A stretch of 12,636 nucleotides of DNA, taken from contig JALREG010000087.1 in NCBI GenBank assembly GCA_023253905.1, positions 1-12,636 on the forward strand, written 5' to 3'. The notes under the pieces were generated by a model. The model saw nothing but the letters and a program-made list of their open reading frames with translations. It had not been told where the DNA came from and ran no database searches. A program made the translations under genes and the position numbers. Of this stretch, positions 1 through 12,636 are shown piece after piece; position 1 is the first letter of the stretch; every line of letters starts with the position of its first letter. The DNA comes from Burkholderiaceae bacterium. GTDB taxonomy: Bacteria > Pseudomonadota > Gammaproteobacteria > Burkholderiales > Burkholderiaceae.

Positions 1-307
1 CGGTTTCAATCTGAAAATCGGACCCCTCAGAGACCAGGTAGCCGATTTCAATCAGGAATGCCTTGTAGGCGACCGCGTCGTGTGGCTGGCCGGCGCGCGC
101 GCGATGCCAGTCATCGATTCTGGCCTGCAGTTCATCGCGACGGGCGAGCAGCGCTCGGTTACGTGGCGCCATGCCGTGGATCAGCTCCGAAAACCCCCGC
201 CAGAATCGCTCAGGTGCAACACCGGTTCCGGGCAGCGCTTCCTGTTCGATCATGTCATGAAGGCTGCGGGCAACGCGCAGGCCATATTTTTCAATTCGCT
301 CGACCAT
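1..307 (-). CDS. glcB: Malate synthase G, N-terminal fragment (runs off the window)
   Basis: Malate synthase G condenses glyoxylate with acetyl-CoA to give malate and CoA in the cytoplasm, as part of the glyoxylate bypass or glycolate use. The 102 residues visible here start MVERIEKYGLRVARSLHDMI and continue with an EALPGTG segment, a FWxGF segment, an APRNRALLARRDELQ segment and an AYKAFLIEIGYLV segment. I recognise all of these as the conserved start of the long (about 720 residue) G isoform rather than the A isoform. The catalytic TIM barrel lies outside the window. The ATG is supported by an AGGAAA ribosome site (312-317 on the opposite strand's numbering) 4 bases upstream. The gene follows cphA on the same strand after 97 bp, so read-through from the cph operon is possible, but there is no obvious functional tie. 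Confidence 0.92.
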   Translation of the reverse strand, partial: MVERIEKYGLRVARSLHDMIEQEALPGTGVAPERFWRGFSELIHGMAPRNRALLARRDELQARIDDWHRARAGQPHDAVAYKAFLIEIGYLVSEGSDFQIET

Positions 308-404: not shown

Positions 405-3002
405 TCAGGGGTTCAGCGCGCGATCGGCTGCGGCGTTTGTTGCCCGCTGAGTGAGGTGGGCCAGCGCCTCGTCCACCTGATCGATCAGCACCAGACAGAC
501 GTCACCGGGTTTCAGCTCGCCGAGTGCGGTGTCGATGGCAAGAAACTCGCCGCGGATTTCCTCAATCCGGGTGGTGCGCGGCGCATTCGCGAGTCCCTGG
601 CGCAGAAGCCCCATGACCTCGCCATCGGCACGGCCGCGCTGTGCGGCGTCCTGGTACAGGATGACGTGATCGAAAAATCGGCCAACGATTTCACCTTGCT
701 CGATGATGTCCTGGTCGCGGCGGTCGCCGGCGGCGCTGATTACGATCGAGCGGTGCCCGCCAGGCATCGCATCGATTGCCTGGGACAGCGCGAGAATCGC
801 ATCGGGGTTGTGGCCGTAATCGGCGATGACGGTGGCGCCGCGGTAGCTGAAGCGATTGAAGCGGCCCGGAACGGTGTCGGGATTGCTGTCGAATGTGGCA
901 AGGCCGTCGGCGATCAGTGCCCAGTCGAGCCCCAGCGCCCAGGCCGCCGCGACCGCGGCCATTGCGTTATCGATCTGAAACGGAATCGCACCGCCCCCCG
1001 TGAGCGGTATGCGTGTGAGGTCGAAGCGATGAACCACGCGCGTGCCCTGTAGCGCGACGATTGACTGGCCGTCCAGCCGCACGGCCCGCTGGTCGGTGGC
1101 GGCCTGGCGCCGCATCGCCGGGAGGGCGCTGTCGCGAGCAAAGAAGATCGTGCCTCCTGGGCAGACCGTCTGCATCGAGGCGACCATGGGATCGGCCGCA
1201 TTCAGGACGGCAAATCCGTTGGGTGCAACGTTGGCAACAATCACCCGCTTGACGAGCGCAAGGTCATCGATCGAATCAATATGGTTGATGCCCAGGTGGT
1301 CGCCCTTACCGAGGTTGGTCACCACGGCCACCTGGCAGCGGTCAAAGCCCAGGCCTTCGCGCAGAATGCCACCGCGCGCGGTTTCGAATACTGCGGCGTC
1401 CACCTCGGGGTGCATTAGCACGTTGCGGGCGCTGCGAGGGCCCGCACAATCGCCGCTATCGGTCTGAACGCCATTCACATAAACGCCGTCGGTATTGGTC
1501 ATGCCCACGCGCAGGCCCGATTGCGCGATCAGATGGGCAATCAGACGAACGGTGGTGGTCTTGCCGTTGGTGCCGGTGACCGCAACGACCGGAATACGTC
1601 CGCTTTCGGCATCGCCATAGAGGAGGCGCACGATCGCCTCGCCCACCTCGCGCCCCTTGCCGTAGGAAGGGCTGATGTGCATGCGCAGGCCCGGCGCGGC
1701 ATTGACCTCGACGATTGCGCCGCCCTGTTCCTCCAGCGACTGTTGAACCGTCTGGCACACCACGTCGACCCCGGCAATTTCGAGACCCACCATCTGCGCT
1801 GCTTCGATTGCGCGCGCCGCGAGGTCGGGATGGACATCGTCGGTGACATCGGTGGCACTGCCGCCGGTACTGAGATTGGCGTTGTTGCGCAGTACCACTC
1901 GCGCGCCCTTGGGTGGTATCGAGTCGGCCTCAAAGCCCTGCACGCGCATGCGGGCGTGAGCGATTTCGTCCAGACGAATTTTGGTAAGTGAGGTGGCGTG
2001 CCCCTCGCCGCGCCGCGGGTCGCGATTGATTTCCTCGACCAGCTGACGAATGGTCTGTACGCCGTCGCCGATGACGTGCGGCGGATCGCGACGCGCGGCC
2101 GCGATCAGCCGATCGCCCACCACCAGCAGCCGATGATCGTGCCCGGGAATGAAGCGCTCGACCATGATGTTGGAGCTGAACTGCGATGCGGCGTTGAAGG
2201 CGATTTCGAGATGGTCACGGCTCACGATGTTGACGGTGACGCCCTTACCCTGATTGCCATCGCGCGGCTTGACCACGACCGGCGAGGCGAGCTCACGCAT
2301 CGCGGCCCAGGCCTCGTCGGTGGAACGCACGACCCGGCCCTCCGGGACCGGCACGCCCGCGGCGGCAAGCAGTTTCTTGGTGAGTTCCTTGTCCTGCGCG
2401 ATTGATTCGGCGATGGCGCTCGTGGCATCGATCTCGGCCGCCTGGATGCGTCGCGCGCGGCTGCCCCAGCCGAACTGCACCAGACTGCCTTCGGTCAGAC
2501 GGCGGATGGGGATGTCACGGGCGTGCGCAGCATCGGCGATCGACCCGGTGCTGGGGCCCATCCGGATATCCTCGTCGAGCGCGCGCAGCTGGTTGAGGGC
2601 TGCCTCGAGGTCAAAGGGCTGGTCGTCGCGCGCGGCGAGGCAGAGCGCCTCGGCAAGCTGGAGCGCCAGCCGACCGACCGGTTCCTCGGTGTACTCGAAC
2701 ACCACCTGGAAGAGGCCCGGCTCCCGAGTGGGCGTGGTGCGACTGAAGGTGACCGGGCATCCCGCCTGGGCTTGCAGGCGGAGCGCGGCGAATTGCAGCG
2801 CCTGTGCGATCGGTACGTCATCGCGCGATCCGATCGAGCGGATGGCACCGATCAGCGGAAACCGGGCGCGCAGCCGCACCTCAAAGCGGGGGATCCGGTC
2901 GATCGACAGTTCGTCGGGCGCGCAGCGCACGATCGCTTCGATCGAAGTATGTCGGCTCCAGAGATTCGGACCGCGAAGCGCGCGGATTCGGTTGACGTCC
3001 AT
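405..3002 (-). CDS. cphA: Cyanophycin synthetase (CphA), full length with intact Mur-ligase domain
   Basis: CphA builds cyanophycin (multi-L-arginyl-poly-L-aspartate) in the cytoplasm without ribosomes: an ATP-grasp domain adds Asp to the backbone and a Mur-ligase-like domain adds Arg to the side-chain carboxyl. The 865-residue product has the usual family length. It opens with MDVNRIRALRGPNLWSRHT, typical of the family. The N domain covers about 1-160. The ATP-grasp domain follows, with VVVKPRDGNQGKG near 242-254 and the metal site IVEVNAAPG near 430-438. The Mur-ligase domain has an intact P-loop GTNGKTTT at 477-484 (Lys481), ETARGG near 540-545, NLGKGDHLG near 563-571 and YGHNP near 729-733. 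The ATG at 3002 is preferred over an upstream in-frame ATG because the conserved family start lies here and an AGGAAC ribosome site (3009-3014) sits 6 bases upstream. The N-domain His/Glu motif kept in the paralogue upstream is replaced here (QALQF, about 67-71). It lies 64 bp downstream of cphA' and is surely co-transcribed. Confidence 0.95.
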   Translation of the reverse strand: MDVNRIRALRGPNLWSRHTSIEAIVRCAPDELSIDRIPRFEVRLRARFPLIGAIRSIGSRDDVPIAQALQFAALRLQAQAGCPVTFSRTTPTREPGLFQVVFEYTEEPVGRLALQLAEALCLAARDDQPFDLEAALNQLRALDEDIRMGPSTGSIADAAHARDIPIRRLTEGSLVQFGWGSRARRIQAAEIDATSAIAESIAQDKELTKKLLAAAGVPVPEGRVVRSTDEAWAAMRELASPVVVKPRDGNQGKGVTVNIVSRDHLEIAFNAASQFSSNIMVERFIPGHDHRLLVVGDRLIAAARRDPPHVIGDGVQTIRQLVEEINRDPRRGEGHATSLTKIRLDEIAHARMRVQGFEADSIPPKGARVVLRNNANLSTGGSATDVTDDVHPDLAARAIEAAQMVGLEIAGVDVVCQTVQQSLEEQGGAIVEVNAAPGLRMHISPSYGKGREVGEAIVRLLYGDAESGRIPVVAVTGTNGKTTTVRLIAHLIAQSGLRVGMTNTDGVYVNGVQTDSGDCAGPRSARNVLMHPEVDAAVFETARGGILREGLGFDRCQVAVVTNLGKGDHLGINHIDSIDDLALVKRVIVANVAPNGFAVLNAADPMVASMQTVCPGGTIFFARDSALPAMRRQAATDQRAVRLDGQSIVALQGTRVVHRFDLTRIPLTGGGAIPFQIDNAMAAVAAAWALGLDWALIADGLATFDSNPDTVPGRFNRFSYRGATVIADYGHNPDAILALSQAIDAMPGGHRSIVISAAGDRRDQDIIEQGEIVGRFFDHVILYQDAAQRGRADGEVMGLLRQGLANAPRTTRIEEIRGEFLAIDTALGELKPGDVCLVLIDQVDEALAHLTQRATNAAADRALNP

Positions 3003-3066
3003 CGGCAGGTTCCTGCGTGCGAGGGGTGGGCGCGGGTGAGATCGGACAGAAGGCGGGCGGCGAGCC

Positions 3067-5250
3067 TCAGGCGGCGACCTGTGGCGCGGGCATGGGCTCG
3101 AGTGTTTCCAGGCCCGCCTGGATGCGCTCGGGCGGGATGCCAATGGCCCATGCAGCCGCGATCGCCGCGAGCAGCCCGTCGTCGGCGGAGCGGGGGTCGC
3201 CTTCGATGGGCAGTTCGAGCGTGCCCGCGCGGAGTTGGGCGATTTCGCGCTCGCCCTCGAGCAGCCTGATCAGGCCTTCCGTGAGGACCACCGCGCGTCC
3301 CCCCGCTGCGGCATGACTCGCCAGCACGGTGGCTGCAGCGTTGGCGCTGAAATACATCACATGGCCTTTACTGAGCGAAGCCATTTCAACCAGCTGATCG
3401 TCGTCGGCGTTCAGCACTGCAGTGCCATGCTTTTCAAGAACGATGTCGACCTGGGTGCGAAAAACCTTGTAGAGCTGCTCGACTGAATCGATGTAGCGCT
3501 CGGGCACCAGACGGTCGGGATTCATGCGTGTGATGACGCCCACCTGGCACCAGTCGTAAGCAAGCCCCTGATCGAGGAGCACATCGAGTCCGTTTTCGAT
3601 CACCGCCGACTCGATCGCGCGGTTCACGAGCAGTCGCTGGCCTGCCAGGAAATTCGCGCTGTCGCGGTGATCGATGCAGCGCGAGCCCAGGAAGAGGCCG
3701 TCCCGGCAGGCGAGCCCCACCTTTTGCCCGGACATCTGGAGCAGGTGGGCGACGACCCGCGCAGCCAGTCGCGTGCCGCCGGTGCCAGCGATGCCGATGA
3801 CCGGAATGCGACCATCGTCCGTAGCGCCGAACAGGTGTTCGATGATCATCTCGGGCACCGGCTTCGGGGGCAGGCCGGGCGGGCGAAGATGGGTGGACAG
3901 GCCCGGGCCCGCGTTGACCTCAACGATTGCGCCGCCCTGCTCGGCAAGCGGCTGCGCGATGTCGTTGGCCACCAGATCGACGCCTGCGATATCGAGACCC
4001 ACCACGCGTGCCGCGAGCACCGCCTGTCGGGCGGTATCGGGGTGAACGAGCGCGGTGCAGTCAAAGCAGACATTGCCGTTTCGCTGTACCAGCACGCGCA
4101 CGTCTTCGCCCGGAACCGAGTCGGGTTCAAAGCCCTGGCTGGCCAGGTCAAGACGGGTGGCGGAGTCAATGCCGACACGGTTGAGGGGGGCGTCGCTCCA
4201 GCCGGTTCCGCCCCGCAGCGGGTCGGAATTCAGTTGCGACTCGATCAGTTCGCGGATGGTCTGTCGACCATCGCCCGTGACCCAGGCGGGCAGGCCGCGT
4301 GCGGCAGCGGCAAGCTGCCCACCCACCACCAGCAGTCGATGCTCGTTTCCGGTCATGTATTTTTCGACGATGACGCCGCTTCCTTCTGCCGCGGCCACCG
4401 GATAGGCGGCAAGCACCTGCTCGCGCGTGACGAGGTTGAGGCAGACCCCCCGGCCGTGATTGCCGTCGTAGGGCTTCACCACCACCGGTACCCCGATGTC
4501 CTCGGCAGCGGCCCAGGCGTCGTCGGCCCCGCTCACCATGCGGCCCGGCGGCACGGCCACGCCACAGGCTTCGAGCAGCGTCTTGGTGAGTTGCTTGTCG
4601 CGGGAAATGCCCTCGGCGATCGCACTGGTCCGGTCGGTTTCAGCGGTCCAGATACGGCGCTGATTTCGCCCGTAGCCCAGCTGCACGAGGTTGCCGTCGT
4701 TCAGGCGGATGGCGGGAACGCCCCGAAGCTCGGCGGCTTTCACGATGCCGGCGGTGCTGGGGCCCAGGCAGTTGGAGTCGGCAATGTCGCGCAACGCGTC
4801 AACCGCTGCGCGCAGGTCGAAGCTGCGATCGTCGTAGGCGGCGAGCACCATCTCGCGCGCGAGCTGCATGGCGCGCAGCGTGACGGTGTCTTCCCACAGG
4901 GTGACGATCACCTTGTAGCGGCCGCGCACGTCAACGCCGCGGGCGCGCCCGAAGCCGCCTGGCAGACCGGCAAGCGACTGCAGTTCAAGCGTGACGTGTT
5001 CCATGATGTGACCGGGCCAGGTGCCCTCACGCAGGCGCTTCAGAAAGCCGCCGCGCTCGTCATAGCTGCAACGGTGTTCGATCAGCGTCGGCAGCCAGCT
5101 TTCCAGCCGCTCGGGCAATCCGGGCACCTTGTCTGACGGCCAGTCCTCGAGCTCGCCGATATCGATCAGCGCCTCCATGGCCGGCAGGTAGGACCACATG
5201 TTCGGGCCACGCAGGTAGGTGACCGAGAGAATCTCGATATCGCGCTTCAT
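3067..5250 (-). CDS. cphA': Second cyanophycin synthetase (CphA'-type), short, with degenerate Mur-ligase domain
   Basis: This 727-residue paralogue of CphA starts MKRDIEILSVTYLRGPNMWS. Its N domain (about 1-160) contains WPGHIMEHVTLELQ at 78-91. The His81/Glu84/His85 cluster falls where the primer-making hydrolytic site has been described in some cyanophycin synthetases. The ATP-grasp domain looks intact: VVVKPYDGNHGRG at 257-269 and IVEVNAGPG at 442-450. The Mur-ligase-like part is not intact. The P-loop reads GTGGTR at 489-494 in place of GTNGKT, so the phosphate-binding lysine is gone. The ETARGG and DHLG motifs seen in CphA are IENGLD and PDRLV here. The protein ends before the C-terminal Mur-ligase domain. 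It can therefore probably still add Asp or extend chains, but not add Arg by the Mur route. I place the start at 5250 from the family N terminus; the longer in-frame extension to 5661 overlaps the divergent gene. No purine-rich ribosome site precedes this ATG. It is the first gene of the cph operon. Confidence 0.93.
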   Translation of the reverse strand: MKRDIEILSVTYLRGPNMWSYLPAMEALIDIGELEDWPSDKVPGLPERLESWLPTLIEHRCSYDERGGFLKRLREGTWPGHIMEHVTLELQSLAGLPGGFGRARGVDVRGRYKVIVTLWEDTVTLRAMQLAREMVLAAYDDRSFDLRAAVDALRDIADSNCLGPSTAGIVKAAELRGVPAIRLNDGNLVQLGYGRNQRRIWTAETDRTSAIAEGISRDKQLTKTLLEACGVAVPPGRMVSGADDAWAAAEDIGVPVVVKPYDGNHGRGVCLNLVTREQVLAAYPVAAAEGSGVIVEKYMTGNEHRLLVVGGQLAAAARGLPAWVTGDGRQTIRELIESQLNSDPLRGGTGWSDAPLNRVGIDSATRLDLASQGFEPDSVPGEDVRVLVQRNGNVCFDCTALVHPDTARQAVLAARVVGLDIAGVDLVANDIAQPLAEQGGAIVEVNAGPGLSTHLRPPGLPPKPVPEMIIEHLFGATDDGRIPVIGIAGTGGTRLAARVVAHLLQMSGQKVGLACRDGLFLGSRCIDHRDSANFLAGQRLLVNRAIESAVIENGLDVLLDQGLAYDWCQVGVITRMNPDRLVPERYIDSVEQLYKVFRTQVDIVLEKHGTAVLNADDDQLVEMASLSKGHVMYFSANAAATVLASHAAAGGRAVVLTEGLIRLLEGEREIAQLRAGTLELPIEGDPRSADDGLLAAIAAAWAIGIPPERIQAGLETLEPMPAPQVAA

Positions 5251-5419
5251 CGGGGGTGGGGAGTCAGGCGTTGGGCCCGCAGGCGCTGAGCGCGGGACAG
5301 TGCGGACACGGTTCGCGGAGGTGGCTGGGGCAAGGATGTCGGTGCGTGGGCACGGGGTCGGGCCAGAACAGTCAGATACTGTACGCTTGTCGACCGAACA
5401 ACGAAAATCGCCTTCCCCC
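5251..5419. promoter_or_regulatory. Divergent control region between the cph operon and the ABC-DUF1854 operon
   Basis: These 169 bp separate the start of cphA' (minus) from the proposed GTG start of the ABC gene (plus), so promoters for both operons should lie here. GC3 bias is lost in this stretch, which argues that it is non-coding. Only weak boxes are visible. On the minus strand, TTGTTC (5396-5401) and TATCTG (5373-5378) are 17 bp apart but each matches the sigma-70 consensus at only 3 of 6 positions. No convincing operator palindrome was found. The shared region suggests joint control of both operons, which is inference. Confidence 0.45.
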
Positions 5420-7738
5420 GTGAGTGTGTCCCTGCCGCCCGTGCCGGCCGCCGATCCGGCGCATGCGTCGATCGCCGAGCCTTGGCGCGATGTCGTCGCC
5501 GCCTGCCTGCAGGCGGGCGAGCGGGTGTTGATTGCGCTCGAACTCGACCTTGACCGGCGGTTGCGGTATGGCGCGGGGCTGGTGGTGCTCACCGACCGCG
5601 CGCTGGTGGCGAAGGCGGCAGGCGATGCCGATTGGCACCGCCATCCGCTGGGAGCCGACACCCGGCTTGAACTCCATGATCACGCAGGAGCGGGTGCGCT
5701 CGAGCTGTTTGAAGCCGATCGTCGGCTCGATGTGTGGCGCTTTACGCTAGGCAGCAATCCGGCGGCGCTGCGGCTGGTGCGCCGATTTGACGAGCTGCGC
5801 GGACAGTCGCCTGAGGCGCAGCAGCCGGGCGCTGAGACCTCCACCCACTGCGAGCGCTGCGGTGCCGACCTGCCGGCTGATGTCGAGGAGTGCCCACAGT
5901 GCGAGGCTGAACTCGCCGTTATGCCGTCATCGCGAACGTTATTCAGGCTATGGCGATTCGCCCGCCCGTATCGGTCGCAGCTCCTGATCGGCTTTCTGCT
6001 CACGCTGGCGGCCACGGCGGCCACGCTGGTGCCGCCCTACCTCACGATGCCGCTCATGGATCGGGTCCTGATCCCCTATCAGAACGGCACGCCGCTTGAC
6101 ACCACGCTGGTGGGCTGGCTGCTCGCGGGTCTGCTCGCGTCAGCGCTGGTTGCCTGGGCGCTGGGCTGGGCGCGCACTTACATTCTCGCGCTGGTGTCCG
6201 AGCGAATCGGCGCCGACCTTCGAACCGCCACCTACGATCATCTGATGCACCTGTCGCTACAGTATTTCGGCGGTAAGCGGACCGGCGACCTGATCGCCCG
6301 CATCGGCGCGGAAACCGATCGCATCAACCTGTTTCTGTCGCTTCATCTGCTTGACTTCGCCACCGACGTGCTGGTGATCGTCATGACCACTGCCGTGCTG
6401 GTGTCGATCGATCCCTGGCTTGCGATGGTGACGCTCCTGCCGCTACCCCTCATCGTCTGGATGATCCATCTGGTCCGTGATCGCCTGAAGCACGGCTTCG
6501 AGAAAGTCGACCGGATCTGGGGAGAGGTCACCAACGTGCTGGCCGACACCATTCCCGGTATCCGCGTGGTCAAGGCCTTCGCCCAGGAAAAGCGTGAGTC
6601 CAATCGGTTCCGGGAAGCCAACCGGCTCAATCGTGCGGTCAACGATCGGGTGAATCGCGTCTGGTCGCTGTTTTCGCCCACGGTCACGCTGCTCACTGAA
6701 ATCGGGCTTCTGATCGTCTGGGGCTTCGGAATCTGGCTAGTTACCCGCGACCAGGTCACCGTCGGGGTCCTCACGGCATTTCTTGCCTATATCGGCCGCT
6801 TCTACACCCGACTCGACTCGATGAGCCGGTTTGTATCGTTCATGCAGAAAGCGGCTGCCGGGGCCAAACGTATCTTCGACATCCTTGACCATGTCTCAAG
6901 TGTTCCCGAGGCCACGCGGCCGGTGGCGCTCACCCACGTGAGCGGACGGATCGAATTGCGTAATGTCGGCTTTCGTTATGGCAGCCGCTCCGTCACGCGC
7001 GGCATCTCACTCACCATCGAGCCGGGCGAGATGATTGGCCTGGTCGGCCATAGCGGTTCGGGAAAAAGCACGCTCGTGAATCTGATCTGCCGGTTCTACG
7101 ACGTCACCGAGGGCGCTGTGCTGGTCGATGGCGTGGATGTACGGTCACTCCCGGTGGCCGACTATCGGCGCAGCATCGGTCTGGTGCTGCAGGAGCCCTT
7201 CCTGTTCTTTGGCACCATTGCCGACAACATCGCCTACGGCAAGCCCGATGCGACGCGTGAGGAAATCATCGCTGCGGCGCGCGCCGCGCATGCCCATGAT
7301 TTCATCCTGCGGCTGCCTCATGGCTACGACTCGCTGGTGGGCGAGCGTGGTCAGGCGCTCTCTGGGGGCGAACGCCAGAGAATCTCAATCGCGCGCGCGC
7401 TGCTCATCGACCCTCGTATCCTCATTCTGGACGAGGCCACCTCGTCGGTTGATACGCAGACCGAAAAGGAAATCCAGCGCGCGCTCGACAACCTGGTGGC
7501 GGGCCGCACCACCATCGCGATCGCGCACCGGTTGAGCACGCTGCGTCGCGCCAACCGGCTGGTGGTGCTTGATCGCGGCCAGGTGGTCGAGGTGGGGGCA
7601 CACGAAGAACTGATAGCGCGCGAAGGCGCCTATTTCAGGCTCTATCAGGCCCAGGCCCGCAATGTGGACACGGAGGACGCGCTGCCCGACTGGCGCGTCG
7701 AGACGACGCATCCGGTGCGGGTGGCGGCCGAGGTCTGA
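5420..7738 (+). CDS. ABC exporter half-transporter with N-terminal PH-like region and zinc ribbon, cyanophycin-associated
   Basis: This is a 772-residue fused membrane-plus-ATPase half-transporter, expected to work as an inner-membrane homodimer. Residues about 20-125 form a soluble, strand-rich segment ending in a helix, including the run LVVLTDRALVAKA, which resembles a bacterial PH-like domain (inference). A zinc ribbon follows: Cys144, Cys147, Cys158, Cys161 (CX2C-X10-CX2C). The six-helix exporter domain runs from about 185 to 470. The ATPase has Walker A GHSGSGKST at 543-551, Q-loop LQEPFLF, signature LSGGE at 647-651, Walker B ILILDEATS with Asp671/Glu672, and the switch His703; all catalytic residues are present. 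The start is uncertain: GTG 5420 was chosen because upstream codons lose the GC3 bias and reach into cphA', but it lacks a clear ribosome site, and ATG 5336 and GTG 5219 are alternatives. It is divergent from cphA' and coupled to the DUF1854 gene. From memory, related ABC proteins are annotated as cyanophycin metabolism-associated; the substrate is unknown. Confidence 0.9.
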   Translation: MSVSLPPVPAADPAHASIAEPWRDVVAACLQAGERVLIALELDLDRRLRYGAGLVVLTDRALVAKAAGDADWHRHPLGADTRLELHDHAGAGALELFEADRRLDVWRFTLGSNPAALRLVRRFDELRGQSPEAQQPGAETSTHCERCGADLPADVEECPQCEAELAVMPSSRTLFRLWRFARPYRSQLLIGFLLTLAATAATLVPPYLTMPLMDRVLIPYQNGTPLDTTLVGWLLAGLLASALVAWALGWARTYILALVSERIGADLRTATYDHLMHLSLQYFGGKRTGDLIARIGAETDRINLFLSLHLLDFATDVLVIVMTTAVLVSIDPWLAMVTLLPLPLIVWMIHLVRDRLKHGFEKVDRIWGEVTNVLADTIPGIRVVKAFAQEKRESNRFREANRLNRAVNDRVNRVWSLFSPTVTLLTEIGLLIVWGFGIWLVTRDQVTVGVLTAFLAYIGRFYTRLDSMSRFVSFMQKAAAGAKRIFDILDHVSSVPEATRPVALTHVSGRIELRNVGFRYGSRSVTRGISLTIEPGEMIGLVGHSGSGKSTLVNLICRFYDVTEGAVLVDGVDVRSLPVADYRRSIGLVLQEPFLFFGTIADNIAYGKPDATREEIIAAARAAHAHDFILRLPHGYDSLVGERGQALSGGERQRISIARALLIDPRILILDEATSSVDTQTEKEIQRALDNLVAGRTTIAIAHRLSTLRRANRLVVLDRGQVVEVGAHEELIAREGAYFRLYQAQARNVDTEDALPDWRVETTHPVRVAAEV

Positions 7739-7741
7739 TCG

Positions 7742-8242
7742 ATGTCCGTCACGCCAGCTCCTGTCCTCGCGCGCCTCCTCTCCGGCGCCACGCTCGAGCG
7801 GACGCCTGCAGGTAGGCTCCGGCTCACCGCGCCCGACGGGGTGGTGCATGAGCCGGTCCTGGTGGTGCGCGCGTTTCCCATCTCGGCGCCCGAACGTGGG
7901 CTCTCGCTGATGAGTGCAGAGGGCCATGAGCTGTTCTGGATCGAGCAGATTTCGGCGCTCGAGCCCGCTGTCCGGTCGCTGGTTCAGGAAGCGCTCGATG
8001 AGCGCGAATTTATGCCGGTGATCGCGCAGCTTCTGGAGGTGTCGGGGTTTGTCACGCCCTGTACGTGGCGGGTGGACACCGATCGCGGACCCGCCCGCTT
8101 CGTTCTGAAGGGCGAAGAAGACATTCGCCGGATCGGAAACGGCGCGCTCCTCATTACCGATAGCGACGGCATTCACTACCTGGTGCGTGATACCGCGGCG
8201 CTCGACCGCAACAGCCGGCGGCTGCTCGACCGCTTTCTCTAG
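7742..8242 (+). CDS. DUF1854 family protein, cyanophycin-associated
   Basis: This is a 166-residue soluble protein with no signal peptide or membrane segment. I recognise it as DUF1854 from its pattern: RLRLTAPDG near 25-33, VVRAFPIS near 41-48, then a segment reading GLSLMSAEGHELFWIEQIS, a helix of acidic and basic residues (VQEALDEREF), CTWRVDTDRGPARFVLKGEEDIRR near 107-130, and a C-terminal NSRRLLDRFL. The family's biochemical function is unknown to me. The start is firm: the ATG is 3 bp after the ABC stop, and a GAGGT ribosome site (7730-7734) sits inside the end of that gene, so the two are translationally coupled. Small all-cytoplasmic partners coupled to ABC proteins are often regulatory or adaptor subunits, so it may act on the transporter's ATPase or link it to cyanophycin granules (inference). 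Its stop lies 9 bp from the stop of the convergent permease gene. Confidence 0.88.
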   Translation: MSVTPAPVLARLLSGATLERTPAGRLRLTAPDGVVHEPVLVVRAFPISAPERGLSLMSAEGHELFWIEQISALEPAVRSLVQEALDEREFMPVIAQLLEVSGFVTPCTWRVDTDRGPARFVLKGEEDIRRIGNGALLITDSDGIHYLVRDTAALDRNSRRLLDRFL

Positions 8243-8251
8243 CCTCGGCGC

Positions 8252-9472
8252 TTACTCGGCGCGCAGGGCCTGCGCGGGCGATAGCGACGCTGCGCGTAGT
8301 GCCGGATAAAGGCCGAAGCAGAGGCCCGCCATGGCGCTTGCCCCACACGCTGCGAGCGCAGCGGGTGCAGTGACGATGGCCGCCATTGCAAAATGTTCCA
8401 CCGCGATCCAGGCGCCCAAAATTCCGATCGCAAGACCCAGTAAACCCCCCGCTACGCAGACCACCACCGACTCATAGAGAAACTGAAGCGCGATATCGCG
8501 CCGGCGCGCCCCCACCGCCATCCGCAGGCCGATTTCGCGGGTTCGCTCGGTGACTGTAACCAGCATGATATTCATGATGCCGATTCCGCCCACCAACAGA
8601 CTGACCGAGGCGATGGTGGCGAGAAGTGTGCGCATGGTGCCGGCGGTTTTCTGCTCTGCTTCATAGAACGCGTCCTGTCGCCGGACCACGAAGTCATCTT
8701 CCAGACCTTCGGCAATGCGGTGGCGGGTGCGTAGCAGCAGTCGGATATCTGCCTCGGCCTGCGGTAGCGCCTGCGCCGACACGGCCTCGACCATCATGCG
8801 GTTGACCCGGTCGGGGAAGGCGCTTCCGAACAGATCGCGCCGAGCGGTGCTGAGCGGCACGTAGATGATGTCATCCAGATCCCAGCCGTCCAGCGTCTGG
8901 CCTTTGCGGGCGAGGAGCCCCACGACGGTGAAGGGAACATTGCGGATCCGGATTGTTTCGCCTACCGGATTGCGCTGACCAAAGAGCTTCTCGGCAATCG
9001 TACCGCCCATGACCGCCTTGCGGGCGGCTGTGCGGACATCGTGTTCGTCGAAGACTCCACCCGCAGCCAGGGTCCAGTCGCGGACCTCGATGATGTCCGG
9101 ATAGGCGCCCTGCACGGGCCCCAGCCAGTTCTGGTTGTCGAACATGATCTGTGCCGTATTCCAGGTGGTGGGCGAGACGGCTCGTACCGAGTCGAGCCCC
9201 CTGATCGCGTCCACGTCGCCGAGCGTGAGCGTGGGGGTTGCGCCCGAGGCCTGGCGGACGCCGCTCGCCACGCTTGCGCCCGAGTTGACCACCAGCACGT
9301 TCGAACCGAGCGTGCGCATCATCTGGCGCACGCGCTCCTGCGACCCTTGCGCGACCGCCAGCATCACCACCACCGAGGCGACGCCCACGATCATCCCGAG
9401 CATGGCGAGAATGGTCCGAAGCGGGTGTGCGCCCAAGGCTCTCCAGGCTTCGGCGGGCAGGGCGGCAAACAT
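8252..9472 (-). CDS. MacB/FtsX-family ABC permease without its own ATPase domain
   Basis: This 406-residue inner-membrane permease belongs to the MacB/FtsX (type VII ABC) family, which uses mechanical movement to drive export through a periplasmic adaptor and an outer-membrane channel, or lipoprotein release. Topology reads as the family standard: one helix near 19-43, a large periplasmic domain about 45-280 (including an ISVVGLL-type stretch FTVVGLLARKGQ and an IIYVPLSTARRDLFG segment), then three helices near 285-310, 336-363 and 372-396. GIMNIMLVTVTERTREIGLR near 302-321, followed by VGARRRDI, is the typical coupling region. The nucleotide-binding domain that MacB carries at its N terminus is absent. 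No separate ATPase gene is present next door, so an ATPase must come from elsewhere if the system works. It starts 27 bp after the adaptor stop, in the same operon. The ribosome site is weak, so translation may depend on the upstream gene. The substrate cannot be told from sequence. Confidence 0.9.
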   Translation of the reverse strand: MFAALPAEAWRALGAHPLRTILAMLGMIVGVASVVVMLAVAQGSQERVRQMMRTLGSNVLVVNSGASVASGVRQASGATPTLTLGDVDAIRGLDSVRAVSPTTWNTAQIMFDNQNWLGPVQGAYPDIIEVRDWTLAAGGVFDEHDVRTAARKAVMGGTIAEKLFGQRNPVGETIRIRNVPFTVVGLLARKGQTLDGWDLDDIIYVPLSTARRDLFGSAFPDRVNRMMVEAVSAQALPQAEADIRLLLRTRHRIAEGLEDDFVVRRQDAFYEAEQKTAGTMRTLLATIASVSLLVGGIGIMNIMLVTVTERTREIGLRMAVGARRRDIALQFLYESVVVCVAGGLLGLAIGILGAWIAVEHFAMAAIVTAPAALAACGASAMAGLCFGLYPALRAASLSPAQALRAE

Positions 9473-9499
9473 GACGAAGACTAGGGTGCCGGGGCGAAA

Positions 9500-10723
9500 T
9501 CAGAAGAGCCGGAAGCGCAGGCCGCCCCGTGCGGACGCGTTCGACGCCTGTACGAACTCACCGATTGCGATGCGATCGCCCTCGGCGACACCGCTGCCGG
9601 CAACCACTTCAGTGAAGGTGCCGTCGGTGATACCGAGTGTCACGCGCTGCCTGCGCAGCGGCTGCCCGCCCGGGGTGTCTTGGGCGACGAGCACCTCGGC
9701 GATCCGGGTGCGCGCCTGCGGGGGCGTACGGGCAGCGCGATCGGCCGGTGCCCCCGAGGACTGCGCCGTCGCACCCGTGGCAGCCGCCGGCGCCACATCG
9801 TTGGCCTCCGAAGGCCGGAATCGGAGCGCCAGATTGGGCACCCGAAGGGCGGCATCGCGCCGCGCGATTTCCACCTGTACGTTTGCAGTCATGCCCGGTA
9901 GCAGCAGCCCGTCTTCATTGCGGGTGGCGAGCACTACGTTGTAGGTCACCACGTTCTGTTCGATCTTGGGATTGAGCCGGATCTGCCGCACCGAGGCCTC
10001 GAAGCTGCGCTCGCCGAGGGCATCCACCCGGAATCGCGCCTGCATGCCGACATTGAGCAGCGCGACGTCCGCCTCAGCCACATTGGTATCGATCTGCATG
10101 TCGCGCAGATCTCGCGCAATCAGAAAGAGGGTCGGTGTCTGGAAGCTGGCCGCCACCGTCTGTCCTACGTCGACACTGCGCGCAATCACCACGCCGTCGA
10201 TTGGCGAGCGGATGGCCGTGTAGGCGAGGTTGGTGCGTTCACGGGCCACCTGGGCCTCGATAGCTCGCACGCGCGCTTGCGCCAGTTCGACCGCCTGACG
10301 TTCATCCTCGACCTGGGCGGCAGAGATGAAGCCGCGCGCGGCGAGCCCCTCGCTGCGCTCGAGCTTGCGGCGAGCGACCGACAGCTGCGTGCGCATCTCC
10401 TGAAAATTAGCCTCGAGCTGCGCGATCTGGGCCTCGATCAGCGAGGAGTCGAGCTCGGCGAGTAATTCGCCCGCGCGCACGGGCTGGTTGAAATCGACCA
10501 GCACCCGTCTGATTCGCCCTGAAATCTGCGTGCCGACGTTGACCAACACGACCGGATTGAGCGTTCCCGTGGTCGCCACGTTCTGCAGGATGTGGCCGCG
10601 ATCAACCGCTGCGAACCGGTATTTCTCCGGTGGCGCGTCGGATGCGCGGTCGGCCAGCAGGAACCAGGCGGCCGCGGCTCCCAGCAGGGTGATGCCAATG
10701 GCAGCAAGGGTGATTCGTCGCAT
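9500..10723 (-). CDS. MacA-like periplasmic adaptor (membrane-fusion protein, HlyD family)
   Basis: This 407-residue adaptor links an inner-membrane transporter to an outer-membrane channel in tripartite efflux. An N-terminal anchor helix (about 4-23, ITLAAIGITLLGAAAAWFLL) is followed by a first barrel/lipoyl half with VGTQISGRIRRVLVDFNQPV near 63-82 and AGELLAELD. A coiled-coil hairpin (about 93-165, heptad-like with many Glu/Arg/Ala, including FISAAQVEDERQAVE) comes next. The second lipoyl half has YTAIRSPIDGVV near 168-179 and is followed by a beta-barrel domain. A C-terminal membrane-proximal domain is interrupted by an Ala/Pro/Thr-rich linker (about 307-335). This arrangement and wording match MacA more closely than RND adaptors. 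It is the first gene of a two-gene operon with the permease downstream. The ATG lacks a purine-rich ribosome site and has a C-rich leader instead. An outer-membrane TolC-like partner is not in the window. Confidence 0.92.
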   Translation of the reverse strand: MRRITLAAIGITLLGAAAAWFLLADRASDAPPEKYRFAAVDRGHILQNVATTGTLNPVVLVNVGTQISGRIRRVLVDFNQPVRAGELLAELDSSLIEAQIAQLEANFQEMRTQLSVARRKLERSEGLAARGFISAAQVEDERQAVELAQARVRAIEAQVARERTNLAYTAIRSPIDGVVIARSVDVGQTVAASFQTPTLFLIARDLRDMQIDTNVAEADVALLNVGMQARFRVDALGERSFEASVRQIRLNPKIEQNVVTYNVVLATRNEDGLLLPGMTANVQVEIARRDAALRVPNLALRFRPSEANDVAPAAATGATAQSSGAPADRAARTPPQARTRIAEVLVAQDTPGGQPLRRQRVTLGITDGTFTEVVAGSGVAEGDRIAIGEFVQASNASARGGLRFRLF

Positions 10724-10956: not shown

Positions 10957-11463
10957 TTGAAGTCCCGTCTCAACGTCAACGGATCGGTTCGGGAGTTCGA
11001 AGCCGATCCAGCCACACCCCTCCTGTGGGTGTTGCGCGAGCAGCTCGGCCTTACCGGCACCAAGTACGGTTGCGGAGTCGCAGCCTGCGGCGCCTGTACC
11101 GTTCATATCGATGGCGTGCCCACGCGCAGCTGCGTGCGGCCCGTGTCGTCCGTCAGCGCTAACGAAAAAGTCGTCACCATTGAGGGGCTGTCGCCCGATT
11201 CCTCGCACCCGGTGCAGAAGGCCTGGGTCGCCCTGGATGTGCCGCAGTGCGGATACTGTCAGAGCGGCATGATCATGGCGGCGGTCGCGTTGCTGCGCGA
11301 CAAGCCCAAGCCCACTGATCGCGACATCGATGAGGCCATGACCAACATCTGTCGCTGTGGCACCTATAACCGCGTTCGCGCCGCCATCAAGGTCGTGGCC
11401 GAGGGCGGCAATCCGCGCACCGCAGGCCTTTCGATCCAGCATGTTGACGGGAGCGTAACATGA
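10957..11463 (+). CDS. iorA: Isoquinoline 1-oxidoreductase-type small subunit, 2Fe-2S protein
   Basis: This 168-residue protein is the electron-transfer subunit of a two-subunit molybdenum hydroxylase of the IorAB kind. It carries two [2Fe-2S] clusters. The plant-type ferredoxin cluster is bound by Cys39, Cys44, Cys47 and Cys59 ([14 protein letters not shown]). The C-terminal helical-domain cluster is bound by Cys98, Cys101, Cys132 and Cys134 ([11 protein letters not shown] and ICRCGTYNR). All eight ligands are present and the length is normal. Electrons pass from the Mo cofactor of the large subunit through these clusters to an acceptor not seen here, often a cytochrome c in this family. It starts with TTG behind a strong ribosome site. 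Its TGA overlaps the large-subunit ATG (ATGA), so the two are translationally coupled. It has no signal peptide of its own and is presumably carried out with the Tat-targeted partner. Confidence 0.93.
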
Positions 11464-12636
11464 GCGAACTGACTGTCACCCGCCGCCAGTTTCTGGCGTC
11501 TTCCGCCGCAGGCGGACTCAGCCTCGCATTCCATCTGCCGTTTGCGTCAGAAGCACTCGCGCAGGGCGCCGCCACACCCGAGGTGAACGCCTGGGTGGTG
11601 ATCAAACCCGATGACACCGTGGTGGTGCGAATCGCCCGCTCGGAAATGGGCCAGGGCACGCTCACCGGCCTCGCGCAGATGGTTGCCGAGGAACTCGGTT
11701 GCGACTGGGCCAAGGTCACCACCGAACAGCCCACGCCCGGCGAAAACCTTGCGCGCAAACGCATCTGGGGCAATTTCTCCACCGGCGGCAGTCGCGGTAT
11801 TCGCGAGTCGCAGGATTACGTCCGCAAGGGCGGCGCCGCGGCTCGCATGATGCTGGTTCAGGCGGCTGCCAATGAGTGGGGGGTGCCCGCCGCGCAGTGC
11901 AGCGTGAACAAGGGGGTGATCTCACACGCTGCGAGTGGGCGTAGTACCACCTATGGCAAGGTTGCGGCAGCGGCGGCCAAGCTGAATCCGCCGTCCGAGG
12001 TGTCGCTCAAGGACACCAAAGACTGGCAGATTCTGGGTAAGCGCCTGGCGCGTCTGGACACCGCCGACAAGGTCAACGGCAAGCAGGTCTATGGGGCTGA
12101 CCTCACCATGCCGGGCATGCTGAACGCCGCCATTCGGAAGTGCCCCGTGTTCGGCGGCAAGGTTGTGAGTTTTGATGCCGCGGCCATCGAGAAACGCCCG
12201 GGGGTTCGCAAGGTTGTGAAGGTGCATGACGACACGGTTGCGGTGGTCGCAGATACCTGGTGGCAGGCCAAGACCGCGCTCGATGCACTGCCCATCAAAT
12301 GGGATCTTGGTCAACACGCCAACGCGTCGAGCGAGTCGTTTGCGAAGGTGTTGCAGGCGGGACTCGATGCCAGCGACGCGGTCATCGGTAACAGCAGTGG
12401 CGATGCCAAGGGCGCGATCGCGTCGGCGGCGCGCCGGGTTGAAGCGGTCTATGCGTATCCGCATCAGAACCATGCCTGCATGGAGCCCATGAACGCAGTG
12501 GCGCGCTTCACTGCCGATCGCTGCGAGGTCTGGACGCCCACTCAAAACGGCGAGGCAGCGCTCGCGGCCGCATCGGAATCCTCCGGTCTGCCAGCGGCGA
12601 AGTGCGAGGTCTACAAGATCAACCTCGGCGGCGGTT
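11460..12636 (+). CDS. iorB: Isoquinoline 1-oxidoreductase-type large subunit, molybdopterin-binding, Tat-exported (3' end cut off)
   Basis: This is the first 392 codons of the catalytic subunit of a xanthine-oxidase-family hydroxylase, usually about 700-750 residues. The N terminus has a Tat signal: TRRQFL at 7-12, a hydrophobic stretch of small residues, and a likely cleavage after Ala-Leu-Ala at 32-34, so the enzyme acts in the periplasm. Next come [19 protein letters not shown] at 61-79, [15 protein letters not shown] near 103-117, then [24 protein letters not shown] near 192-215 and [16 protein letters not shown] near 335-350, all typical of the single-chain IorB type that lacks a FAD subunit. 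The Gly-rich cofactor loop begins at the very end (INLGGG). A GGGAG ribosome site (11449-11453) lies inside the iorA end, and the ATG overlaps the iorA stop. Homologues oxidise N-heterocycles or aldehydes; the substrate here cannot be called. Confidence 0.92.

Follow-up and report, generated by a model that had tools for sequence, protein, structure and literature searches.

Why would the genes that make cyanophycin, a nitrogen-storage polymer, be placed back to back with a membrane transporter? The question is raised by a four-gene block in a 12,636-nucleotide stretch of DNA from a Burkholderiaceae bacterium (contig JALREG010000087.1; the whole stretch is referred to as the window), in which two cyanophycin synthetase genes, cphA and cphA', diverge from genes for an ABC exporter and a DUF1854 protein. 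We found that, within the sampled Pseudomonadota, the ABC-DUF1854 pair is restricted to genomes with split synthetases, which are mostly cyanophycinase-free. The cluster itself and the names of its proteins are already known, the NCBIfam names stating association only. The literature searched, with subscription papers mostly outside it, yielded no description of divided active sites, no paper naming DUF1854, and no account of the restriction of the pair to split-synthetase genomes or of the contrast in cyanophycinase.

All four genes are matched by family profiles at the place where the original prediction had put the block. On the minus strand, cphA (405..3002) scores 1198 bits with NF010623 (cut-off 877) and 948 bits with TIGR02068 (cut-off 850), while cphA' (3067..5250) reaches 943 bits with NF010623, over the cut-off of 877, and 688 bits with TIGR02068, under that of 850. 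On the plus strand, the ABC exporter gene (about 5420..7738) matches NF052233, 'CphA_assoc_ABC', at 1377 bits (cut-off 880). The DUF1854 gene (7742..8242, plus strand) starts 3 bp behind the ABC stop and encodes a protein of 166 amino acids (PF08909, 169 bits, cut-off 26.8; NF052234, 218 bits, cut-off 150). NF052233 and NF052234 are NCBIfam equivalogs already named as a cyanophycin metabolism-associated ABC transporter and DUF1854 protein, which bears out the names given in that prediction.

Genomic partners of the ABC-DUF1854 pair

The loci of relatives were collected with a profile of 22 aligned DUF1854 proteins in a scan of species genomes, from which the best 80 of at least 588 relatives were kept. 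As close relatives, most of them beta-proteobacteria, are over-represented in this set, gene-blind genome samples were added: a phylum sample of 398 Pseudomonadota genomes and an order sample of 300 genomes of one order (that of genome G001). Both ABC and cphA' are seen in 74 of the 80 loci, the remaining 6 being cut by contig ends. As the two genes are adjacent in 74/74, the arrangement of the block is not a product of chance. The divergent order, whose conservation the original prediction had proposed to score, is kept in 70 of the 74, and four loci (L041, L047, L048, L054) show the co-directional order ABC-DUF1854-cphA'-cphA.

The phylum sample contains 22 genomes with a PF08909 match. One of these (G366, 27.1 bits) proved on its reading frame to be a LacI-type regulator and was dropped, leaving 21 true DUF1854 genomes. 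In all 21, a CphA scoring over cut-off lies on the contig of the DUF1854 gene, no more than about 8 kb away and in divergent orientation. CphA exceeds the cut-off in 29 genomes of this sample, and the 8 that lack DUF1854 also lack the ABC gene and NF052234, with a best ABC score of 425 bits against the cut-off of 880. In the order sample, CphA is found at E 1e-150 or better in 113/300 genomes (111 over cut-off), and NF052234 and NF052233 each in 101; the two sets of genomes are identical and lie entirely inside the CphA set (Fisher p 6e-67, kinship ignored). The co-occurrence persists in three genomes (G533, G568, G588) in which the pair lies hundreds of kilobases from CphA. The 12 CphA genomes of this sample without the pair comprise 9 with a stand-alone CphA, 2 with a split-type CphA on short contigs, and G523. 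The missing pair of the two split-type genomes (G510, 8.4-kb contig; G665, 7.6-kb contig) is taken as an assembly gap; an ABC frame that matches the window's at 466 bits stands at the end of the G510 contig. G523, despite a match at E 1e-174, has no N- or G-domain motif and was not accepted among the true CphAs. Genomes with a stand-alone CphA carrying all three active sites lack the pair throughout, in 8/8 cases in the phylum sample and 9/9 in the order sample.

Across the sampled Pseudomonadota, the ABC-DUF1854 pair follows the split synthetase and not the stand-alone CphA, and in this lineage we regard its genetic partnership with CphA as almost certainly obligate. A link first drawn from position alone is now carried by co-occurrence in 101/101 and 21/21 genomes, even when the genes are far apart, and neither sample holds an ABC-DUF1854 pair without CphA, the finding that had been named as speaking against the link. 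Cyanophycin as such, however, does not hold up as the partner, given the stand-alone-CphA genomes without the pair and a like pair in Gemmatirosa on a replicon without cphA.

The Gemmatirosa pair was found in a plasmid search. On the 1.1 Mb plasmid 1 of Gemmatirosa kalamazoonensis (L204 12471-15393), a DUF1854 gene lies directly behind an ABC gene, in the same order as in the window; the zinc ribbon of the window protein is absent. The Gemmatirosa ABC protein is 44% identical to that of the window over 607 columns. Its best NCBIfam match is NF052233, at 625 bits against the cut-off of 880 and from profile position 16 on, and it probably shares the N-terminal domain of the window protein. Its DUF1854 neighbour scores 73 bits with NF052234, under the cut-off of 150. 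A search for CphA' relatives on plasmids (E 1e-40) returned none in Gemmatirosa, with all 19 matches covered by the organism tally. A search with the Gemmatirosa DUF1854 protein itself yielded 2108 relatives; of the 120 listed, those that carry a name belong to Gemmatimonadota. Sulfolobus acidocaldarius, 1 of 14 control genomes, has a PF08909 match and no NF052234 match over cut-off. Given this plasmid pair and the Sulfolobus protein, ABC-DUF1854 is a wider module, one branch of which goes with the split synthetase. The same observations would suit a general envelope role in lipid or peptide export, merely co-inherited with cphA and cphA'; set against the complete co-occurrence in both samples, including the genomes with distant genes, and the absence of the pair beside stand-alone CphA, we consider such a role improbable.

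The genomes with and without the pair also differ in cyanophycinase. TIGR02069, the cyanophycinase profile, scores over cut-off in 7/106 pair-bearing genomes (4/61 + 3/45) and in 17/20 CphA genomes without the pair, the misses being G523, G510 and G665, which were kept within the 20. In three of the seven (G648, G675 and G302; loci L205, L206 and L207), the enzyme lies beside two extra CphA frames in a second cyanophycin locus, with the split block elsewhere in the genome. No CphA was found in the stretch examined for the other four (G421, G460, G491, G596). TIGR02069 is not among the best 25 families listed for each of the 9 main frames of the window. The rarity of the enzyme in pair-bearing genomes agrees with a survey that reports a recognisable cyanophycinase in 2.8% of 903 beta-proteobacterial CphA1 genomes and in 70-100% of other tabulated groups (PMC10206079). 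Hosts that mostly lack cyanophycinase hint at a different use of cyanophycin.

These data also bear on an ordinary intracellular storage role, in which the pair would tune the supply of Arg, Asp or beta-Asp-Arg or signal the polymer level, and an unrecognised cyanophycinase would degrade the polymer. Such a role fits the tight genetic link of the pair with CphA. IadA/IaaA, reported in 70.9% of beta-proteobacterial CphA1 genomes (PMC10206079), would often provide the second degradation step, and even expression of the cphA copies is reported for Accumulibacter (PMC10687191). Yet none of the 17 genomes with a stand-alone CphA has the pair, although their need for supply would be the same, and among the neighbours of the block in the 80 loci no conserved candidate for such a hydrolase was seen. 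We consider ordinary storage rather doubtful.

Division of the active sites between CphA and CphA'

CphA1 is described as having three active sites: an N site with the motif Cx19HxxEH, which is a primer-making peptidase, a G site and an M site (PMC9262961). In the enzyme SuCphA1, the substitutions E82Q, H267A and D585A-H586A inactivate the three sites, H267A that of the G domain and D585A H586A that of the M domain, and active sites can work across protomers (PMC9262961). The window pair shares its domains and overall sequence with this enzyme, and none of the three sites is missing from the pair as a whole. All three lie on one chain in SuCphA1, whereas in the window the N site and the G-domain His are in CphA' and the M site is in CphA.

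In the N domain of the window's CphA', the metallopeptidase motif reads HIMEH (4996..5010, minus strand), with the Cys at 5068-5070. The full motif Cx19HxxEH is found in 75/75 CphA' and 0/71 CphA proteins; here and below, the counts for CphA' (75), CphA (71) and ABC (78) include the window. We take HIMEH to be the endo-cyanophycinase site of CphA1, with the primer-making function described above. The G domain of CphA' keeps the catalytic His position in DGNHGRG (4447..4467, minus strand), while CphA reads DGNQGKG (2241..2261, minus strand), with Gln at the position of SuCphA1 His267. Of 74 CphA' proteins with a residue at this position, 68 have His and 6 have Arg (one further row is gapped); CphA has Gln in 70/70 that aligned, and the solved CphA1 chains shown have His. 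In the M domain the division runs the other way. CphA has an intact P-loop, GTNGKTT (1554..1574, minus strand), and an intact GKGDHLG (1290-1310, minus strand). The frame of cphA', encoding the second synthetase subunit, ends within the Mur-ligase region and gives no Pfam Mur_ligase match; its P-loop is degenerate (GTGGTRL, 3766..3786, minus strand), and DRLV stands in place of DHLG. Across the relatives, GTNGKT is found in 68/71 CphA versus 11/75 CphA' proteins, and DHLG in 70/71 CphA. The 11 CphA' proteins with GTNGKT are full-length and come from Achromobacter, Cupriavidus and Pandoraea loci. The CphA' of Cupriavidus necator H16 is probably full-length too, like those of L022 and L023.

Judged by these motifs, the cphA product is a synthetase subunit that has an intact M domain (the Arg-adding Mur-ligase domain), has lost the N-domain active site and carries Gln in place of the G-domain His. 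Three sites in one chain, as in CphA1, are thus found in neither window protein, the N motif and the His being in CphA' and the P-loop and DHLG in CphA. The stand-alone CphAs keep the Cys, HxxEH, the His and the P-loop in 17/17 by alignment (8 phylum, 9 order; one was read in two contig pieces, and only its readable motif residues were scored). The exact Cys spacing of 19 is found in 4/8 of those from the phylum sample. In a tree of 55 sequences, with a midpoint root and no CphA2 included, CphA and CphA' form separate groups (100/100 each) that are sisters, with the stand-alone CphAs branching outside them; the window's CphA' sits on a long branch. The original prediction had treated the cyanophycin chemistry as settled. 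What had been overlooked is that the active-site residues are divided between the two proteins.

Taken together, an N site in CphA' and an M site in CphA appear very probable by analogy with CphA1. That Asp is added mainly by CphA' seems somewhat better supported than the opposite; this estimate was lowered because a Gln-type CphA occurs beside cyanophycinase, so that Gln may be functional. PMC9262961 points out that, where both activities sit on one chain, expression offers no way to balance synthesis against cutting. Two separate subunits could offer one.

Two further readings of CphA' have to be weighed at this point. Freed of a polymerising M domain, CphA' might be the main depolymerase that replaces cyanophycinase, the pair handling the released chains or regulating the cut. 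The endo-cyanophycinase motif is indeed kept in every CphA' of a group in which cyanophycinase is mostly missing, and a separate gene would let hydrolysis be tuned by expression, as the single chain does not allow (PMC9262961). However, the N domain of SuCphA1 is reported to yield pieces of about four dipeptides, not dipeptides, so a finishing enzyme would be needed (PMC9262961), and cphA and cphA' stand in tandem on one strand, where separate regulation is not obvious. We regard this reading as unlikely.

Alternatively, CphA' could be a truncated synthetase similar to CphA2, its G domain joining beta-Asp-Arg dipeptides that the ABC protein imports or exports. CphA2 has no working M domain, and likewise the window's CphA' has neither a Mur_ligase match nor an unbroken P-loop, while the checked G-domain residues are kept. 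CphA2 is described as rejoining dipeptides with one active site (PMC10206079). But CphA2 is without the N-domain motif (PMC9262961), which the window's CphA', with HIMEH and its upstream Cys, retains along with all the other CphA' proteins. Dipeptides would moreover require cyanophycinase, which is mostly missing, and CphA' is the sister group of CphA in a tree that had no CphA2. A CphA2-like function therefore seems to us quite improbable.

The membrane module and its surroundings

The ABC protein combines a membrane domain and an ATPase in one chain (PF00664, 146 bits; PF00005, 116 bits). Its open frame, the one listed in the original prediction, begins at 5219, inside cphA'. As 61/78 relatives align only from residues 61-90 onward and the NF052233 profile starts near residue 71, GTG 5420 is the likely start codon. 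The N-terminus is modelled as a PH-like domain (5468..5803, plus strand) ahead of a zinc ribbon, and a structural match to the PH fold was found over the domain. The zinc ribbon, CERCGADLPADVEECPQC (5849..5902, plus strand), was correctly recognised in the original prediction: it reads CxxC-x10-CxxC, and a pattern of CxxC-x8-14-CxxC is present in 72/78 ABC proteins, 2 of the 6 without it being truncated frames. Pfam DZR is matched at E 0.1 or better in 53/61 ABC proteins, the window scoring 19.9 bits (cut-off 27.3).

Near the last membrane helix lies RFYTRLDSMSR (6797..6829, plus strand), in which R527, R531, D533 and R537 are invariant in 78/78 ABC proteins. The ATPase motifs span 7046..7444 on the plus strand, with Walker A at 7046-7072, the signature at 7358-7387 and Walker B at 7418-7444; the Walker A and signature patterns are found in 78/78 proteins and the Walker B pattern in 72/78. 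The membrane and ATPase domains are common to solved ABC exporters (TM_0287/0288, TmrAB, Sav1866, MsbA), and TM_0288 is the best membrane-domain sequence match among solved structures. Unlike these, the window protein has an additional PH-like and zinc-ribbon N-terminus, a DUF1854 partner gene and the invariant extra charges by the last membrane helix. At the four charged positions TM_0288 has Q, P, N and N, and the Gemmatirosa ABC protein, without cphA, has M, P, E and Q, Glu thus replacing D533.

For the DUF1854 protein, structure comparison gave weak tandem-PH hints, none of them a reliable fold match. As possible proof of contact between the two proteins, a natural ABC-DUF1854 fusion was sought in a search for long proteins with DUF1854; of 4210 candidates one matched, P0125, from eukaryote data. 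The ABC portion of P0125 stops short within the ATPase domain, at the point where DUF1854 starts, and the protein was set aside as a faulty gene model. This chimaeric model, whose DUF1854 part is 56% identical to that of the window, is probably bacterial contamination of the eukaryote data set.

With GTG 5420 as the start, cphA' and the ABC gene are separated by a divergent control region of about 170 bp (5251..5419). It contains no match to the sigma-70 consensus, and a scan for the sigma-70 pattern found it in 1/78 control regions. A minus-10-like word of the TATACTTG type is aimed at the ABC gene in 17/77 loci, several of these being close relatives; in the window, CAGATACTGTACGCTTG lies at 5373-5389, upstream of the likely ABC start. 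Patterns for NtrC, sigma-54, ArgR, Nac and PhoB in 71 control regions were not clearly above shuffles, the largest gain being that of PhoB (5.00 vs 5.25 mismatches).

No flanking family extends beyond 13/80 loci (frames of at least 150 amino acids, within 10 kb, BLAST E 1e-25). On the minus strand at 8252-10723, the window carries, convergent with DUF1854, a MacB-type permease that has MacB_PCD and FtsX but lacks an ATPase domain, together with a MacA/RND-type adaptor; these families are not among the commonest neighbours of the block in relatives. Further along (10957-12635, plus strand), a xanthine or aldehyde dehydrogenase-like enzyme is represented by its 2Fe-2S subunit and the beginning of its molybdopterin-binding subunit. 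At the other end (2-307, minus strand) is the N-terminal part of malate synthase G, cut at the window edge.

Export as the tentative fate of the polymer

The explanation that we favour as a whole, although tentatively and at less than even confidence, is that the block encodes a two-subunit cyanophycin synthetase with a dedicated membrane module. The N-domain peptidase of CphA' would cut chains to primers, and its better-kept G domain would probably add Asp, while the M domain of CphA would add Arg; this assignment of reactions follows the known enzymology of CphA1. CphA and CphA' probably act together in a mixed oligomer. The ABC protein, with its PH-like domain, zinc ribbon and exporter core, would move the product, either polymer or short chains cut by CphA', out of the cytoplasm across the inner membrane, and DUF1854 may be its small soluble partner.

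Among the roles originally proposed for the pair (export, import, anchoring and sensing), we infer export to be the likeliest: the pair co-occurs with CphA, cyanophycinase is mostly absent, one such strain is reported to lack the polymer, and the ABC protein is of the exporter type and has its ATPase motifs. The invariant charged residues by the last membrane helix, absent in TM_0288 and mostly absent in the cphA-free Gemmatirosa protein, were also counted for it. Export of polymer or short chains is plausible, its substrate and direction being assigned with some reserve. It would explain the mostly absent cyanophycinase in pair-bearing genomes, and it would equally explain why no cyanophycin is observable in such a strain, Ralstonia eutropha, whose wild type is reported to have two CphA homologues and no observed cyanophycin (PMC11362209). 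A stronger version is possible but doubtful: a cyanophycin-like Asp-Arg polymer would then be an exported product and not a storage granule, made by the split synthetase as length-controlled chains at the membrane and secreted by the PH-domain ABC protein with DUF1854.

A similar cluster has been described from activated sludge. The Group 1 cphA cluster consists, as does the block, of two cphA copies and an ABC transporter with no cphB (PMC10687191). The available part of that account reports flanking insertion sequences and makes no mention of DUF1854, divided active sites or a role, and it calls for work on cphB analogues and cyanophycin transport genes.

Several observations weigh against a split synthetase coupled to export. 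The division of the active sites is incomplete in places, as seen in the 6 CphA' proteins with Arg at the His267 position and the 11/75 with an M-domain P-loop, and two CphA proteins of the phylum sample (L118, L120) keep HxxEH without the Cys. In genome G193 (L194 6284-11782), a CphA-type gene with Cx19HxxEH lies directly beside ABC-DUF1854. It has Gln at the His267 position and falls at the base of the CphA side of the tree (96/87), and the contig ends there; the gene may be an intermediate, and a second synthetase gene may lie beyond the contig end. In G302, G648 and G675, the neighbours of cyanophycinase are full-length CphAs of the Gln type that have an intact P-loop and lack HxxEH; Gln was read there in 5/6 second-locus frames, the sixth not being readable by pattern. 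This CphA type is not unique to the block and may work outside it, and its Gln may be active. The Gemmatirosa plasmid pair without cphA indicates that the basic job of ABC-DUF1854 need not be cyanophycin. Among the neighbours of the block (80 loci, within 10 kb) there is no conserved outer-membrane or adaptor gene, and neither the PDB nor a viral library gave a Foldseek match to DUF1854 with an E value of 0.001 or lower. Finally, the lack of observed cyanophycin in R. eutropha could reflect low expression, and cyanophycin is mentioned in Bordetella species in a paper that cites others for it (PMC8560796).

The proposed division of labour makes testable predictions: CphA' makes primers, neither subunit suffices alone, and loss of ABC or DUF1854 shifts the location of the polymer. 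It also carries a warning for biotechnology, where a beta-proteobacterial CphA tested without CphA' may look poor. Genomes of the kind surveyed in PMC10206079, with CphA1 and mostly no cyanophycinase, carry the divided synthetase and the ABC-DUF1854 module. A role for this module would give the first function to a DUF1854 protein. If export is true, the ABC protein would be a transporter of a cyanophycin-type polymer, and the prevailing lack of cyanophycinase in beta-proteobacteria with CphA would be explained.

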